NCBI GenBank assembly: GCA_026414705.1
Contig: JAOAIM010000009.1
Span: 1-38,069, forward strand
Reading direction: 5' to 3'
Length of the DNA stretch: 38,069 bases
Source: Verrucomicrobiia bacterium
Lineage (GTDB): Bacteria; Verrucomicrobiota; Verrucomicrobiia; Limisphaerales; JAOAIM01
The position numbers were made by a program, and so were the translations under genes. Under the pieces are notes generated by a model. It was not told where the DNA came from and did no database searches. It saw nothing but the letters and a program-made list of their open reading frames with translations. Positions 923-38,069 of this stretch are shown here, piece by piece. Numbering within the stretch: position 1 is the first letter of the stretch; each line of letters begins with the position of its first letter.

Positions 923-2347
923 TCAGCCCTTGAGTTTTCGTTCCAAAATTTCGCCCACGAGCACCGGGTTCGCCCTGCCCTTGCTGAGCTTCATCACCTG
1001 GCCCTTGAGGAAGTTCAGCGCGGCGGCTTTGCCCGAGCGAAAATCGTTCGCAGGTCCGGGATGCGCGGCGATGACCTCATCACAGAACTTTTCGATGGCC
1101 GCCGTGTCGCTCACCTGGGCGAGGCCCTTTTCCTGAACGATGAGAGCGGGCGAACGACCCGTATCGAACATTTCGGCAAAGACCTGTTGGGCGGCGGAAC
1201 TGCTGATGGTGCGGTTCTCGACCAGTGCGACCAGTTCGAGCAACGACTCGGGCGGGAATTTCAGGTCGTCAAGGCTCGTGCCGGTTTCGGCGAGTCGGGC
1301 CTGCAGGTTGTTGAGGAGCCAGTTGGCGATGGCCTTGGGGTTTTTTGCGCCACGGGCCAGCCGCTCAAAGTAGTTGCACAGGGGCACGTTGCTTTTGAAC
1401 ACCTCGGCGTCGCCGGCGGGCAGGCCGTAATCGCGCATGAGCCGTTGCTTGCGCGCCAGCGGCAGCTCGATGAGGCGCGCGCGCACCTGGGCGAGCCATG
1501 CTTCGGAGGGCGCAACCGGCATCAAATCCGGGTCGGGAAAATAGCGATAGTCGTGCGCGTATTCCTTGGTGCGCATCTCCTCGGTGACGCCGGCGACGTC
1601 ATCCCAGCGGCGAGTGGACTGGGTGAGCGTGCCGCCGCTGCGGAGCACCTCGATCTGCCGGGCGATTTCGTATTCGAGCGCGCGGCGCACGCCGGAAAAG
1701 CTGTTCATGTTTTTGATTTCGATCTTCGCGCCCAGTTCGCGCGAGCCTTTCGGGCGCACGCTCACGTTGACGTCGCAGCGCACCATGCCCTTTTCCATGT
1801 CGCAATCGCTCACGCCGCCCTGCACGAGGATTTCTTTGAGCGCGTTGAGGTATTCGTAGGCCATGTCCGCGCTGGTGATGTCCGGCTCGGAAACAATTTC
1901 CATCAAGGGCACGCCCGCGCGGTTGAAGTCCACGCCGCTGGTGCGCTCGAAATGAAAGCTCTTGCCCACGTCCTCCTCCAGATGCGCGCGGGTGATGCGC
2001 ACGCGCGCGACCCCGCCATTGAACTCGAACTCGACGAAGCCGTTTACGGTCGAGGGCAGGTCGTATTGCGTGATCTGGTAGTTCTTGGGCATGTCCGGGT
2101 AAAAATAGTTTTTCCGGTCGAACTTGGCACGGGGCGGGATTTGGCAGTTCAGCAAGAGACCGGCGAGCGCGGTCAGACGCAGCGCCTCCTCGTTGGGCAC
2201 GGGCAACACGCCCGGCAGGCCCAGGCACACGGGGCAGACGTTGGTGTTGGGGGGCGCGCCGAACTCGTTCGGGCAGGCGCACCACATCTTCGAACGGGTC
2301 TTGAGCTGCACGTGCGTTTCCAGGCCGATGACCGCTTCGTATTCCAT
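923..2347 (-). CDS. gatB: Asp-tRNA(Asn)/Glu-tRNA(Gln) amidotransferase subunit B
   Basis: GatB is the tRNA-binding, kinase-type subunit of the GatCAB amidotransferase, which converts mischarged Glu-tRNA(Gln) and Asp-tRNA(Asn) to the correct aminoacyl-tRNA. The 474-residue product starts MEYEAVIGLETHVQL and carries the family's zinc-site region (CACPNEFGAPPN...VCPVCLGLPG), DRKNYFYPDMPKNYQITQ, and the GVPLMEIVSEPD motif. It ends with a YqeY-like tail domain (SKGRANPVLVGEILERKLKG). Length is normal for the family. An in-frame extension to 2386 exists, but the ATG at 2347 sits exactly where GatB proteins begin. gatA and gatC are not in the window, so the subunits are scattered in this genome. Its presence implies an indirect route to Gln-tRNA or Asn-tRNA. 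Confidence 0.97.
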   Translation of the reverse strand: MEYEAVIGLETHVQLKTRSKMWCACPNEFGAPPNTNVCPVCLGLPGVLPVPNEEALRLTALAGLLLNCQIPPRAKFDRKNYFYPDMPKNYQITQYDLPSTVNGFVEFEFNGGVARVRITRAHLEEDVGKSFHFERTSGVDFNRAGVPLMEIVSEPDITSADMAYEYLNALKEILVQGGVSDCDMEKGMVRCDVNVSVRPKGSRELGAKIEIKNMNSFSGVRRALEYEIARQIEVLRSGGTLTQSTRRWDDVAGVTEEMRTKEYAHDYRYFPDPDLMPVAPSEAWLAQVRARLIELPLARKQRLMRDYGLPAGDAEVFKSNVPLCNYFERLARGAKNPKAIANWLLNNLQARLAETGTSLDDLKFPPESLLELVALVENRTISSSAAQQVFAEMFDTGRSPALIVQEKGLAQVSDTAAIEKFCDEVIAAHPGPANDFRSGKAAALNFLKGQVMKLSKGRANPVLVGEILERKLKG

Positions 2348-2432
2348 ACGCGGCGCAAGTCTAGCGGCGTCGGCGCGATGAAACACGGCTTTTCAGACGC
2401 CGGAGCTTTCCGAGAGCGCGCTGCGGGCACGC

Positions 2433-3791
2433 TCAGGTGCGTCGGGCGTAGGGCAGTTTCCAGGGTTCGCGGTAGGTGGCGCCGACGAGCTTGTCCGCTT
2501 CCGGGCTGTTGGGCACGCGTTCGTTGGCGGCGTCCCAGACGATTTTTTGCCCGGAGCGAAAGGCGATGTTGCCCAGATGCGCGACGGTGGAGACGTGATG
2601 GGCAAGTTCGAGGTTGAGCACCGGTTGCTGACGGGTTTTGACGCAATCGAGGAAGTTGCGGATATGAGCGGGGCGCGGGTCGCCGCTGCCGGGATGTTTT
2701 TCCGGTTCGAGAGAGGCTTTGCGCTTTTCGATGAGCAGCTCCCAGCCGGAGTCATTGAGCACAATCGTGCCCTCGGTGCCGCTCCACGAAACGCCCCAGG
2801 GCCGTCCGTTCAGGCCCACGCCCAGACCGCTTTTGTGCTCCCAGATCAGCATGAAATCCGGAAACTCATACACGGCGGTTTGCGAATCGGGCGTTTCCTG
2901 CACCGGGTCGAGCACAAACGTGCCGCCGCTGGAGCAGACCGTTTTCGGCGGAACGCGGTCCATGCCCATGAGCGCCATGTTGATCAGGTGCACGCCCCAG
3001 TCGGTCATCAACCCGCCCGCGTAATCCCAGAACCAGCGGAAGTTGAAATGAAAGCGATTCGGATTGAACGGTCGCTTCGGCGCCGGGCCCAGCCACAGGT
3101 CGTAATCCACACCCGCAGGCGGTTCGCCGTCCGGCTCGCGCTTGAGCGTGGGCAACCAATCCAACCACGCCCAGGCGCGCACCAGACTCACCTTGCCGAG
3201 CTTGCCCGATTTGACGAACTCCGCCGCCTCGATGATGTGCCGACAACTTTTCCATTGCGACCCCATCTGGACCACGCGCCGATGTCTTTGCGCAGCGGTC
3301 AGCATGGCCCGCCCTTCGTCAATCGTCGTAGCCAGCGGTTTCTCCACATACACGTCCTTGCCCGCCTGACACGCGAGCACGGTGGGTAGCGCGTGCCAGT
3401 GATCCGGCGTCGCCACGATGACCGCGTCCACGTCGGCCCGGTCGAGCACGCGTCGAAAGTCTTTGACCGTTTCTGGTGCTTTGCGGCCCTTGCTGGTGCA
3501 GACCTCCACTCCCCTGGCGAGCATCCCCTCGTCCACGTCGCAAATTACGACACATTCCACTTCCGGGTTGCCCAGAAAGGTCGCCAGGTTGCCACGACCC
3601 ATGCCGCCCGAACCGATGAGGCCGACTCGAATTTTCTCACTGGGGGGCGGTTCGCCCGCGCGCGCCCGGCGCACAAACGGAAACATCACACTGCCAGCCA
3701 CCGGCACGACCGCGGCCGCAAGCGTGGATTTTTGAAGAAACGAACGCCGTGTCACCCGCGGGGCGCCCCTGGATTGGTTGTTCGGATTCAT
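2433..3791 (-). CDS. Tat-exported Gfo/Idh/MocA family oxidoreductase
   Basis: The 452-residue product opens with a twin-arginine signal (VTRRSFLQKS at about residues 13-22, then a hydrophobic segment and an A-x-A-like end), followed by an NAD(P)-binding Rossmann fold (GLIGSGGMGRGN near residues 58-68) and the family's EKP motif (residues 150-152, VYVEKPLATT). The C-terminal half has the substrate-binding alpha/beta domain with WFWDYAGGLMTDWGVHLIN, typical of the many secreted members in Verrucomicrobiota and Planctomycetota. These act on sugars or inositols with a tightly bound dinucleotide, which would explain folded export through Tat. The substrate cannot be read from sequence. The ATG at 3791 is chosen because it places the twin-arginine motif near the N terminus; an upstream in-frame extension to 3920 looks non-coding. 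Confidence 0.9.
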   Translation of the reverse strand: MNPNNQSRGAPRVTRRSFLQKSTLAAAVVPVAGSVMFPFVRRARAGEPPPSEKIRVGLIGSGGMGRGNLATFLGNPEVECVVICDVDEGMLARGVEVCTSKGRKAPETVKDFRRVLDRADVDAVIVATPDHWHALPTVLACQAGKDVYVEKPLATTIDEGRAMLTAAQRHRRVVQMGSQWKSCRHIIEAAEFVKSGKLGKVSLVRAWAWLDWLPTLKREPDGEPPAGVDYDLWLGPAPKRPFNPNRFHFNFRWFWDYAGGLMTDWGVHLINMALMGMDRVPPKTVCSSGGTFVLDPVQETPDSQTAVYEFPDFMLIWEHKSGLGVGLNGRPWGVSWSGTEGTIVLNDSGWELLIEKRKASLEPEKHPGSGDPRPAHIRNFLDCVKTRQQPVLNLELAHHVSTVAHLGNIAFRSGQKIVWDAANERVPNSPEADKLVGATYREPWKLPYARRT

Positions 3792-33752: not shown

Positions 33753-34943
33753 ATGAATGCCATGAAACCACCACTCGCGCATCTCCGGTTCCTCCTTTGC
33801 GCCATCGGCCTGGGCGCGTCGGTCGCCACGCACGCCAGCGCAGACGGCCTCGACCTCGGCCTGGGCAACCTCTACCGGCTCTCGAATGCCAAATCGCGCT
33901 CGATCAGCCCGGAAAACTTCACCGGCGAAAAGGGCAAGGGCGGCATGGCCACCGAGGGCACGGGCAAACACGCCGCCGCCGAACTGGGCCAGGGCTGGAA
34001 GGTCTCGCCCTCGGTCGTCATCAAAGCCCGCACGACCTTCACGCTCGGCGAGATTCAAGGACCCGGCTGCATCCAGCAAATCTGGATGACGCCCACGGGC
34101 AACTGGCGGCGCTCGATCATCCGCTTTTACTGGGACGACGAACCCGAACCGTCGGTGGAAGTGCCGGTGGGCGATTTCTTCGCGTGTGGTTGGGGGCAGT
34201 ATTGCCAGATCAATTCGCTGGCGGTGTGCGTCAACCCCGGCAGCGCCTTCAACTGCTACTGGCCGATGCCCTTCCGCAAAAAAGCGCGCATCACGATGGA
34301 GAACCTCGACGACCGCGACATGGTGCTCTACTACCAGATCAACTACCAACTCGCCCCGGTCGCCAGGGATGCCGCCTACTTCCACGCCCAGTTCCGTCGC
34401 GAATCGCCGCTCAAACAAAAGGGCCTTTACACCATCCTCGACGGCGTCAAAGGTCGCGGCCACTACGTTGGCACCTACATGGCCTGGGAAGTCCACAGCC
34501 CCGGCTGGTGGGGCGAGGGCGAAATCAAGTTCTACCTGGACGGCGACCGGGAGTTCCCGACGATCTGCGGCACGGGCACGGAGGATTATTTCTGCGGCTC
34601 GTATAACTTCGACACCAAGGGGCCGGACGGCAAAAACCGCTACACGATTTTTTCGACCCCGTACAGCGGCCTGCCGCAGGTGATCCCGCCGGACAAAATT
34701 TACGAGCCGGGCCAGCGCTTCGGGCTGTATCGCTGGCACATCATGGACCCGATCCGCTTCCAGAAAGACCTGCGCGTGACCATTCAGGCGCTCGGCTGGA
34801 AAAAAACCGAGGCCGGCAGCCGCTACCTGCAACTGGAAGACGACATCGCCTCGGTCGCCTACTGGTATCAAACCGAGCCGCACGCGAAATTCCCGCCGCT
34901 GCCCAACCGCGAGCAGTTGAGCTTCGACAAACCCAAACTCTGA
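33753..34943 (+). CDS. GH172 (DUF2961) family glycoside hydrolase, secreted
   Basis: The 396-residue product has a signal peptide (HLRFLLCAIGLGASVATHASA) and the DUF2961 core, now glycoside hydrolase family 172: SISPENFTGEKGKGG, RFYWDDEPEPSVEVPVGDFF, the aromatic tract CNPGSAFNCYWPMPF, ITMENLDD, and the acidic FYLDGDREFPTICGTGTEDYF, which carries candidate catalytic acids. Characterised GH172 members act on D-arabinofuranosyl or fructofuranosyl linkages; the substrate of this one is unknown. ATG 33753 follows AACGGGA; MKPP at 33762 is an alternative. The frame stays open far upstream, antisense to clpC, but that part is not coding. It is followed 119 bp later by the tandem fucosidase on the same strand. 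Confidence 0.88.
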   Translation: MNAMKPPLAHLRFLLCAIGLGASVATHASADGLDLGLGNLYRLSNAKSRSISPENFTGEKGKGGMATEGTGKHAAAELGQGWKVSPSVVIKARTTFTLGEIQGPGCIQQIWMTPTGNWRRSIIRFYWDDEPEPSVEVPVGDFFACGWGQYCQINSLAVCVNPGSAFNCYWPMPFRKKARITMENLDDRDMVLYYQINYQLAPVARDAAYFHAQFRRESPLKQKGLYTILDGVKGRGHYVGTYMAWEVHSPGWWGEGEIKFYLDGDREFPTICGTGTEDYFCGSYNFDTKGPDGKNRYTIFSTPYSGLPQVIPPDKIYEPGQRFGLYRWHIMDPIRFQKDLRVTIQALGWKKTEAGSRYLQLEDDIASVAYWYQTEPHAKFPPLPNREQLSFDKPKL

Positions 34944-35062
34944 ACGCGTTTGGCGCGACCGCAACGGGGTCGGGTTGACACCGGGGTTGCGTTGCGGCTC
35001 AATGCCCGCGCGACAAACGAACCGTCGCTCTCTGTGCCGTGAACCAGCAAATCACGCAAACC

Positions 35063-37681
35063 ATGAACCTGCTCAAAATTGTGCCCGTTTGCGCGCTGAC
35101 GAGCCTCAGCGTGCCAAATCTGACCTCGGCCCCGGCAGCCGACGTGCCGCTCCGGGACTACACCAGGGAATGGCCCGCCGATCGCGCCCGGCGCATGGCC
35201 TGGTTCGAGGAGGCGCGGTTCGGCATGTTCATCCACTGGGGGCTGTACGCCGTGCCGGCCGGTGAGTGGAAAGGCAAAAAAGTTTCCGGCATCGGCGAAT
35301 GGATCATGGAGCACGGCAAAATCCCCGTCTCCGAATACGAAACGCTCGTGCCGCAGTTCAATCCGGTGAAGTTCGACGCCCGCGAATGGGTGCGCATCGC
35401 CAAAAACGCCGGCATGAAATACATCGTCATCACCAGCAAGCATCACGACGGCTTTGGCCTCTGGCCCTCCGAGCTGACCGACTGGTGCATCAAGTCCACT
35501 CCGTTTGGGCGCGACCCGCTCAAGGAACTGGCTGACGCCTGCCGCGAGGCCGGCATTCGCCTCTGCTTCTACTACTCGATCATGGATTGGCATCACCCCG
35601 ACTGGCCCAAACGCCGCCCCTGGCACGACAAGGCCACCGGCCAGCCTGACATGGACCGCTACGTCGCCTACATGAAGGGCCAGCTCAAGGAACTCATCAC
35701 CCGCTACGGGCCGCTGGGCATCTTGTGGTTCGACGGCGAATGGGAAGAACCCTGGACGCACGAACGCGGCGTGGACCTCTACAACTACGTCCGCAGCCTC
35801 CAGCCCGACATCATCATCAACAACCGGGTCGGCAAGGGCCGCAAAGGTATGGACGGCATGGACAAGGAAGGGCGTGGGGTGGGCGATTACGGCACGCCTG
35901 AACAACGCATCCCGCCGACCGGCTTTGGCCCCGGCGTCTATTGGGAATCCTGCATGACCATGAACGACACCTGGGGCTATCGCAAAGACGATCACAACTG
36001 GAAATCTGTCGAGACGCTCGTGCGCAACCTCATTGACTGCGCCAGCAAGGGCGGCAACTACCTGCTCAACGTCGGCCCCACGGCCGAAGGCCTCATCCCG
36101 CAGCCCAGCGTCGAACGCCTCGCCGCCATCGGCCGTTGGATGCAGGCCAATAGCGAAGCCATTTACGGCACGCGGGCCAGCCCCTTTGAAAAACTCGACT
36201 GGGGCCGCTGCACCCAAAAGCCCCACGGCATCGGCACAACGCGTCTTTATCTCCATGTGTTCGATTGGCCCGCCGACGGCCGGCTGGTCGTGCCGCCGCT
36301 CGCCAACAAACCCCTGCGCGCCGCGCTCCTGGCGACCGGCCAGAAGTTGCGCGTCAAGAAGACCGGCAACCAAATCGTCATCACCGTCCCAAAGGAAGCT
36401 CCCGACAAAATCGCCACCGTCATCGCGCTCGACATCCAGGGCGAACCGCTCGTGCCCAAACCCGGCGCGGCGCTCCCGGAAAGCTCCACCCAACGCGACG
36501 CCCGCATGAAACACTGGCGCGACGCGCGTTTCGGCATGTTCGTCCACTGGGGGCCGGTCTCGCTCAAGGGCACCGAGATCGGCTGGTCACGCGGGCGCGA
36601 AATTCCCGTCGAGGAATACGACCGGCTCTACCTCCGGTTCAACCCGACGAACTTCAACGCCCGCGACTGGGCGCGCCTGGCGCGCGACGCCGGGATGAAA
36701 TATCTGGTCTTCACCACCAAGCACCACGACGGCTTTTGCATGTGGAACACCCAACAAACCGATTTCAACATCATGCGCTCGCCATTCGGGCGCGACGTTG
36801 TGGGCGAACTGGCCGCCGCCTGCCGCGCCGAGGGCGTCGCCTTTGGCACCTACCACTCCGTTTGCGACTGGCACCACCCGGATTTCCCGTTGACCAGTCC
36901 CGGCGGCAAGGTGCGCCGCCCATTGAGCAACCTCGACCGCTACGAGCAATACCTCCACGCGCAGGTCACCGAATTGATCCGCAACTACGGTCCGCTCTGG
37001 GTCATGTGGTTCGACGTGCCCCAGGAATTCGACACTGCGCGCGGGCAACGGCTCATTGACCTGTGCCGCTCGCTGCAGCCGGGCATCATCGTCAACAACC
37101 GCAGCGGCGCCCCCGGCGATTACGACACCCCCGAACAACGCATCGGCGGCTACCAGGACACCCGCCCTTGGGAAACCTGCATGACCCTCGGCACCCAGTG
37201 GGCCTGGAAACCCAACGACCGCATCAAATCGCTCGAAGAATGCATTCACAACCTCATCCGCTGCGCCGGCGGCGACGGCAACTTCCTGTTCAACGTTGGC
37301 CCGCGCCCGGACGGTCTCATTGAGCCGGACCAGGCCCAACGCCTGCGCGAGATGGGCGCGTGGCTGCGCCAGTACGGTCGTGCCATCTACGGCACGCGCG
37401 GCGGCCCGTTCAAGCCCACCGACTCGCTCGCCAGCACCCGCCGCGGCAACACCATTTACCTCCACGTGCTCGACTGGAAAACCGACACCCTCCGCCTGCC
37501 ACCCCTGCAGGCGCGCATCCGCGCCACCCGCGTGCTCACCGGCGGCACAGCCGACGTTCAACAGAGCACCCACGGCATCAGCATCCGCGTCGCCCCCGAA
37601 CATCGCCACGACATCGCCACGCTCATCGCGCTCAAGCTCGACCGCTCCGCCATGGACGAGCCGGCCGTGAGCGTGAATTGA
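35063..37681 (+). CDS. Secreted alpha-L-fucosidase with two tandem GH29 catalytic domains
   Basis: The 872-residue product has an N-terminal signal-like segment (MNLLKIVPVCALTSLSVP) and two full GH29 domains, about 30-450 and 475-872. Both repeat the same landmarks: RFGMFIHWG / RFGMFVHWG, MKYIVITSKHHDGFGLW / MKYLVFTTKHHDGFCMW, DWHHPDWP / DWHHPDFP, LWFDGEWE / MWFDVPQE with the candidate nucleophiles Asp224 and Asp651, and NYLLNVGPTAEGLI / NFLFNVGPRPDGLI. Two full catalytic domains in one chain are unusual; GH29 enzymes usually have one, sometimes with beta-sandwich or CBM parts. The halves differ enough that they may have different linkage specificity. It would release fucose outside the cytoplasm, alongside the GH172 gene. 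An upstream GTG at 35039 is a less likely start. Confidence 0.9.
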   Translation: MNLLKIVPVCALTSLSVPNLTSAPAADVPLRDYTREWPADRARRMAWFEEARFGMFIHWGLYAVPAGEWKGKKVSGIGEWIMEHGKIPVSEYETLVPQFNPVKFDAREWVRIAKNAGMKYIVITSKHHDGFGLWPSELTDWCIKSTPFGRDPLKELADACREAGIRLCFYYSIMDWHHPDWPKRRPWHDKATGQPDMDRYVAYMKGQLKELITRYGPLGILWFDGEWEEPWTHERGVDLYNYVRSLQPDIIINNRVGKGRKGMDGMDKEGRGVGDYGTPEQRIPPTGFGPGVYWESCMTMNDTWGYRKDDHNWKSVETLVRNLIDCASKGGNYLLNVGPTAEGLIPQPSVERLAAIGRWMQANSEAIYGTRASPFEKLDWGRCTQKPHGIGTTRLYLHVFDWPADGRLVVPPLANKPLRAALLATGQKLRVKKTGNQIVITVPKEAPDKIATVIALDIQGEPLVPKPGAALPESSTQRDARMKHWRDARFGMFVHWGPVSLKGTEIGWSRGREIPVEEYDRLYLRFNPTNFNARDWARLARDAGMKYLVFTTKHHDGFCMWNTQQTDFNIMRSPFGRDVVGELAAACRAEGVAFGTYHSVCDWHHPDFPLTSPGGKVRRPLSNLDRYEQYLHAQVTELIRNYGPLWVMWFDVPQEFDTARGQRLIDLCRSLQPGIIVNNRSGAPGDYDTPEQRIGGYQDTRPWETCMTLGTQWAWKPNDRIKSLEECIHNLIRCAGGDGNFLFNVGPRPDGLIEPDQAQRLREMGAWLRQYGRAIYGTRGGPFKPTDSLASTRRGNTIYLHVLDWKTDTLRLPPLQARIRATRVLTGGTADVQQSTHGISIRVAPEHRHDIATLIALKLDRSAMDEPAVSVN

Positions 37682-37848: not shown

Positions 37849-38069
37849 ATGTCTGCAGAAACCAAAGAAGCCAAATGCCCGTTCAACCACGGCGCCGGGT
37901 TCGCCGGCGCAGTCCCGGCCGGCGTCGGCACCACCAACCGCGACTGGTGGCCGCACGCCCTGCCGCTGGAAATCCTTCACCAGCACTCCGAAAAGTCCAA
38001 CCCGATGGGGCGGGACTTCGATTACCGTAAAGAGTTCCAGAGCCTGGATTACTGGGCGCTGAAGAAGGA
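37849..38069 (+). CDS. katG: Catalase-peroxidase KatG, N-terminal part (cut by window end)
   Basis: The first 73 codons read [20 protein letters not shown], then [20 protein letters not shown], and further on [23 protein letters not shown]. This is the characteristic N terminus of bifunctional catalase-peroxidases (CPFNH, the NRDWWP motif, HQHS, DFDYxxEFxxLD). KatG destroys hydrogen peroxide with a haem cofactor. The gene runs off the right edge, so the active-site Trp-Tyr-Met region is not visible. It starts 167 bp after the fucosidase gene and probably has its own promoter. Confidence 0.93.

Follow-up and report, generated by a model that had tools for sequence, protein, structure and literature searches.

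Two GH29 domains in one open reading frame

The window, by which we mean the whole 38,069-nucleotide stretch of Verrucomicrobiia DNA analysed here, carries near its 3′ end a reading frame that stops at position 37681 and is open upstream to a GTG codon at 35039 or an ATG codon at 35063. Read from the ATG, the frame encodes 872 amino acids. The features of this region are given below, where types A and D2, like type A′ in later sections, are our own labels for clades of the GH29 family.

33753..34943, + strand: DUF2961 gene directly upstream of the fusion, a possible partner (PF11175, 328.8 bits)
35063..37681, + strand: whole coding frame, 872 amino acids, two GH29 domains
35063..35140, + strand: probable Sec-type signal peptide, residues 1-26, assigned by eye
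35153..36157, + strand: GH29 barrel 1, type A (PF01120, 332.8 bits; half-1 model, mean pLDDT 92.3)
35732..35734, + strand: Asp224, predicted nucleophile of half 1, from alignments including 6GN6 Asp186
35900..35902, + strand: Glu280, predicted acid/base of half 1, in GTPEQ; aligns with 6GN6 Glu239 and is invariant in type A
36158..36448 (limits approximate), + strand: C-terminal β-sandwich of half 1, from the model strands; Fucosidase_C scores 24.3 bits, just below its cut-off of 25.6
36449..36514, + strand: linker into half 2, from a gapless by-eye alignment with the linkers of A+A′ tandems
36485..37378, + strand: GH29 barrel 2, type D2 (PF01120, 282 bits; half-2 model, mean pLDDT 93.8)
37013..37015, + strand: Asp651, predicted nucleophile of half 2, from alignments including 6GN6 Asp186
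37133..37135, + strand: Glu691, predicted acid/base of half 2, in DTPEQ; aligns with 6GN6 Glu239 and is invariant in type D2
37379..37645 (limits approximate), + strand: C-terminal β-sandwich of half 2, from the model strands
37849-38069, + strand: gene start resembling catalase-peroxidase (katG), by eye

A Pfam scan of the fused protein matched PF01120 to two stretches with a total of 609.6 bits against a cut-off of 25.2, and the genome search placed the 332.8-bit and 282-bit matches, each above the same cut-off, in one frame with zero stops between them. NCBIfam returned no family for the whole protein, for half 1, or for half 2. An alignment of the two halves spans 425 columns with 41% identity (E 5e-104), a likeness far beyond chance, and the HWG, KHHDGF, WFD, and NVGP motifs were found at residues 58, 126, 222, and 336 in half 1 and at residues 495, 553, 649, and 744 in half 2. 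These results bear out an initial annotation of this DNA, which had described two complete GH29 domains in a single polypeptide, all four motifs in both halves, and nucleophiles at Asp224 and Asp651, the numbering that follows from WFD at 222 and 649. The same annotation set WFDGEWE in half 1 against WFDVPQE in half 2 as a difference around the nucleophile; the letters are correct, but the divergence is not private to this protein, as each stretch has the usual letters of its own family (consensus WFDGEWE in the type A alignment and WFDVPQ in the type D2 alignment).

Predicted fold and catalytic residues

Each half was folded separately with AlphaFold, and the weakest ten-residue block, which lies in half 1, had an average pLDDT of 55. 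Both models consist of a (β/α)8 barrel followed by a C-terminal β-sandwich, with Asp224 and Asp651 at the end of the fourth predicted strand in their respective models. In Foldseek searches, the best matches of both halves were GH29 enzymes, and the first match for each was 6GN6, the α-L-fucosidase isoenzyme 1 of Paenibacillus thiaminolyticus, an enzyme that we take to belong to GH29-A. TM-scores of the half models ranged from 0.81 to 0.90 against 6GN6 and the listed 9EU entries, whose titles name them as GH29A. Among solved structures 6GN6 stands closest to each half, in sequence as in fold, and has its catalytic Asp and Glu at the same positions; it differs from the window protein in having one catalytic domain per chain and is 41% identical to half 1 and 34% identical to half 2 in the fold alignments. 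The Bacteroides thetaiotaomicron GH29 fucosidase (2WVV series) has the same fold and is 36% identical to half 1, but it is a single-domain enzyme and only 26-27% identical to half 2.

Counting positions in the sequence alignment, 6GN6 chain positions 207 and 260 face Asp224/Asp651 and Glu280/Glu691, respectively, and the alignment of half 2 to 6GN6 sets the same catalytic stretches opposite each other. A passage of one report equates Ser237 of 6GN6 with Thr264 of the Thermotoga maritima enzyme (PMC13103868). Because Ser237 is chain position 258, two before the aligned Glu, the offset is 21, and chain positions 207 and 260 are Asp186 and Glu239, the residues given as the catalytic pair of the 6GN6 enzyme in a passage of PMC10815079. 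The spacing agrees with that of the T. maritima fucosidase, for which a passage of PMC9548408 gives Asp224 and the acid/base Glu266 as catalytic residues: Thr264 stands two before Glu266, as Ser237 stands two before Glu239. The acid/base assignments come from sequence alignment, not from structure superposition. The Asp and Glu columns were invariant in all 25 rows of the type A alignment (24 relatives chosen from 53 listed) and in all 27 rows of the type D2 alignment (all 26 listed relatives). The catalytic residues of half 1 were likewise invariant in a joint 47-row alignment, in which, however, the D2 rows were placed on half-1 columns. Judged from these alignments and models, both halves look catalytically competent. 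The initial annotation had held that a half lacking activity or conserved acid/base residues would point to a binding role; at the level of sequence neither half is of this kind, and the acid/base Glu is present in both.

Separate ancestry of the two halves

Searches of 320 genomes of the same order found single-domain relatives at up to 76% identity to half 1 and up to 70% identity to half 2. In a tree of 113 domains, a branch with support of 100 separates the halves, and single-domain members stand beside each of them. The 113-domain tree puts half 1 in a ten-row clade made up of seven tandem first halves, two single-domain genes (from G109 and G265), and half 1 itself; SH-aLRT support for this clade was 99 in that tree and 95 in a second tree, but bootstrap/SH-aLRT support was only 82/91 in a careful 28-row tree, so that the placement is tentative. 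Half 2 was placed among single-domain D2 genes in the 113-domain tree and scored 644 bits on the D2 profile, so that profile and tree both assign it to D2 rather than A′. The 80 named relative loci include many from Planctomycetota and Bacteroidota and some from other groups. As each half is closer to single-domain relatives than to the other half, the sequences indicate that the protein is a fusion of two long-diverged GH29 paralogues, A then D2.

Other proteins with two GH29 domains

A 190-residue junction query, with at most ten or eight candidates scored per genome and a strict E-value in the class-wide search, gave junction-spanning matches in at least 10 of the 320 same-order genomes (window included) and, in a sample of 384 genomes from the class, in at least seven, three of them shared with the same-order ten. 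By profile score, the second half is of type A′ in all nine other same-order tandems listed. Seven of the nine first halves belong to the type A clade; those of G034 and G012 have A as their highest-scoring profile but lie outside it. In G012 and G264 the second half is not intact (cut or broken). The A+A′ tandems, for example that of Limisphaera sp. SKYG106 (L165, the same gene as that of G048), resemble the window protein in their first half, which is 68-77% identical to half 1 in the seven that share its clade, in linker length, and in keeping the catalytic residues in both full halves. They differ from it in the second half, which is A′ where the window has D2, and the seven complete A+A′ tandems extend ~140 residues beyond the second domain, whereas the window protein hardly extends at all.

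Among 186 GH29-gene loci, which count some genes twice, we found 18 distinct frames with two GH29 matches of more than 150 residues: nine A+A′, four A′+A′, L154, L155, L220, L229, and the window, which was the only one to combine A with a full D2. Each of the 13 tandems with two full domains, the window among them, retains the pocket His, nucleophile Asp, and acid/base Glu at the aligned columns of either half; identity between the two halves is 41-55%, and none is a pair of near copies. An aligned-column check found one half lacking the aligned acid/base residue or the conserved first His in L154, L155, and L229, and by sequence there are thus GH29 pairs with one odd half. In L155 (positions 1221-3548) and L154 it is the aligned acid/base residue that one half lacks, and these odd halves are possibly degenerate or re-purposed. 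In L229 (4770-8024, Armatimonadetes), a single frame of 1084 residues joins a GH29 domain that by eye bears WVGNEDG with an F5/8 type C domain and a GH29 domain of type A. We take the WVGNEDG stretch of its odd half to be GH29-B-like, and if that half is GH29-B its catalytic-column alignment is unreliable; L229 is possibly a fusion of GH29-B to GH29-A. The 1083-residue frame L220 (4662-7913, Planctomycetaceae) contains two D2 domains that share 44% identity and flank a weak F5/8 match. By profile score, L245, L246, L247, and L248, from four genomes of one family of the same class, are A′+A′ tandems of 1049-1152 residues with halves 47-48% identical. These sequences suggest that the joining of unlike GH29 domains happened on more than one occasion.

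A passage of PMC10154630 describes GH29 enzymes as usually having one catalytic domain and one or two C-terminal β-sandwich domains. For Planctomycetes, passages of PMC4807772 describe fused sulfatase genes and GH29 genes of mixed origin, but no GH29 tandems. Our literature search, which covered few subscription papers, found "GH29-GH29" in no paper and a double GH29 in none of the titles listed. GH29 tandems may well be represented in sequence databases. The components of the window protein are ordinary; its pairing of A with D2 is unusual.

Unfused A and D2 genes and the DUF2961 neighbour

Three other genomes have a type A and a D2 gene as unfused neighbours. In G112 and G111, a D2 open frame directly precedes and overlaps an A frame, an order unlike that of the fusion, and the D2 copies group in another branch of their clade. 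In L167 the order is A and then, immediately, D2. The D2-A pair of G112 stands directly behind a DUF2961 gene, as the fusion does in the window, and this gene is the closest match (79% identity) to the one upstream of the fusion. G111 has a DUF2961 gene, also at 79%, ~3 kb before its D2-A pair, and L200 has one ~2 kb before a D2 gene. DUF2961, the Pfam name, as we understand it, of family GH172, presumably denotes enzymes acting on furanosides. Relatives of the upstream DUF2961 gene at E ≤1e-90 occurred in 68 of the 320 genomes, and when 44 of the 77 other such places were compared with 75 A or D2 places, only G111 and G112 had the two within 5 kb. Types A and D2 themselves co-occurred in 28 genomes, with A in 48 and D2 in 54 of the 320 (window omitted; Fisher p 4e-13), a figure that carries little weight, as it uses only the highest-scoring places and ignores kinship.

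The genome that contains the window has 28 sulfatase matches (two on contig C8 are probably one gene) but no more than three genes with a GH29 match, of which one is weak (34 bits). An L-fucose isomerase C-terminal family match scored 27.4 bits, below its cut-off of 29.3. The sulfatase and sub-threshold isomerase matches do not name a substrate. Among scanned single-domain relatives, the type A protein L039 carries an extra DUF5077-like domain at its C terminus, and the D2 proteins L043 and L044 carry an F5/8 domain there; the Pfam scan of the window protein found neither.

How the fusion arose

In the initial annotation the duplication "looks old", which we read as one GH29 gene duplicated internally and diverged over time. 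The halves are indeed homologous, but their 41% identity falls well short of the 76% and 70% to their nearest single-domain genes, and the fully supported branch places them in separate clades; the duplication is therefore unsupported, we reject it, and we regard it as barely credible. Hardly more probable is an error of assembly or base calling that joined two neighbouring genes. The genome is fragmented into 390 contigs, and unfused A and D2 neighbours do occur; against such an error, the window has a single open frame with no stop and, by eye, nothing like a further signal peptide where half 2 begins, unlike the separate D2 genes compared, its linker matches those of other tandems in length, and third-base G+C is similar in the two halves (0.84 in half 1 and 0.87 in half 2).

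For a genuine fusion of A and D2, the origin would be either replacement of A′ by D2 in an existing A+A′ tandem or a fresh fusion of adjacent A and D2 genes. The linker has the same length in the window and in the A+A′ tandems, but some separate D2 genes begin with a linker-like stretch, and for that reason linker likeness fails to decide between the two. In an AU test, a grouping of the seven A+A′ first halves with G265, apart from the window and G109, was not rejected (p 0.293), and the window may thus lie inside or outside the A+A′ group. Two single-domain genes within the clade of tandem first halves, L144 (G265:C701) and L123 (G109:C505), end just after the first domain; from their sequences, the second half would have been either lost or never gained. 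A wider idea, that GH29 tandems form a scaffold with an exchangeable second domain and that D2 replaced A′ near the conserved barrel entry, we offer tentatively and consider somewhat doubtful.

Proposed function

On balance, we favour the reading that the protein is a secreted exo-α-L-fucosidase with two complementary active sites, formed from fused GH29 paralogues of types A and D2. The probable signal peptide would direct its secretion. Each half would use the usual retaining double displacement, in which the Asp attacks and the Glu gives and takes the proton, and from their ancestry the halves may differ in the linkage or the neighbouring sugar that they accept. One polypeptide could then strip a glycan whose fucose residues occur in differing settings, possibly in concert with the upstream DUF2961 enzyme, and the single chain would let both sites reach the same glycan together. 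Action on different linkages is plausible from the sequences: the difference in specificity is read from the difference in clade alone, and it fits the other full tandems, whose halves are likewise well diverged. Weighing against the favoured reading are the modest identities of the halves to the closest solved enzymes (41% and 34%), the tandems with one odd half, the lack in the window protein of the extra C-terminal domains of scanned single-domain relatives, the restriction of nearby DUF2961 genes to G111 and G112 among the places compared, and the sub-threshold L-fucose isomerase score.

The strongest competitor, which we think unlikely although it deserves a real share of belief, is that both halves act on the same linkages and that the benefit of fusion is limited to higher local concentration, stability, or avidity. 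Of solved GH29 enzymes, 6GN6 is nearest to both halves, and a passage of PMC11189522 describes GH29-A clusters with predicted substrate promiscuity; the fully supported split between the clades of the halves and the low identity (41-55%) within all 13 full-domain tandems argue against it. Much less probable is that one half has lost its activity and now has a binding or structural role. The odd halves of L154, L155, and L229 offer precedents for this arrangement, but in the window protein the motifs stand in both halves and are invariant within their families, and both models have high confidence along almost their whole length. As the main reading, loss of activity in one half was rejected on the catalytic columns.

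For the GH29 family, fused pairs of unlike domains of the kind that we propose here would reveal which fucosidase specificities a single glycan requires in combination, and they would be ready-made two-site tools for defucosylation. If second domains are indeed exchangeable, a two-site fucosidase would have been retuned by the exchange of one whole active site.
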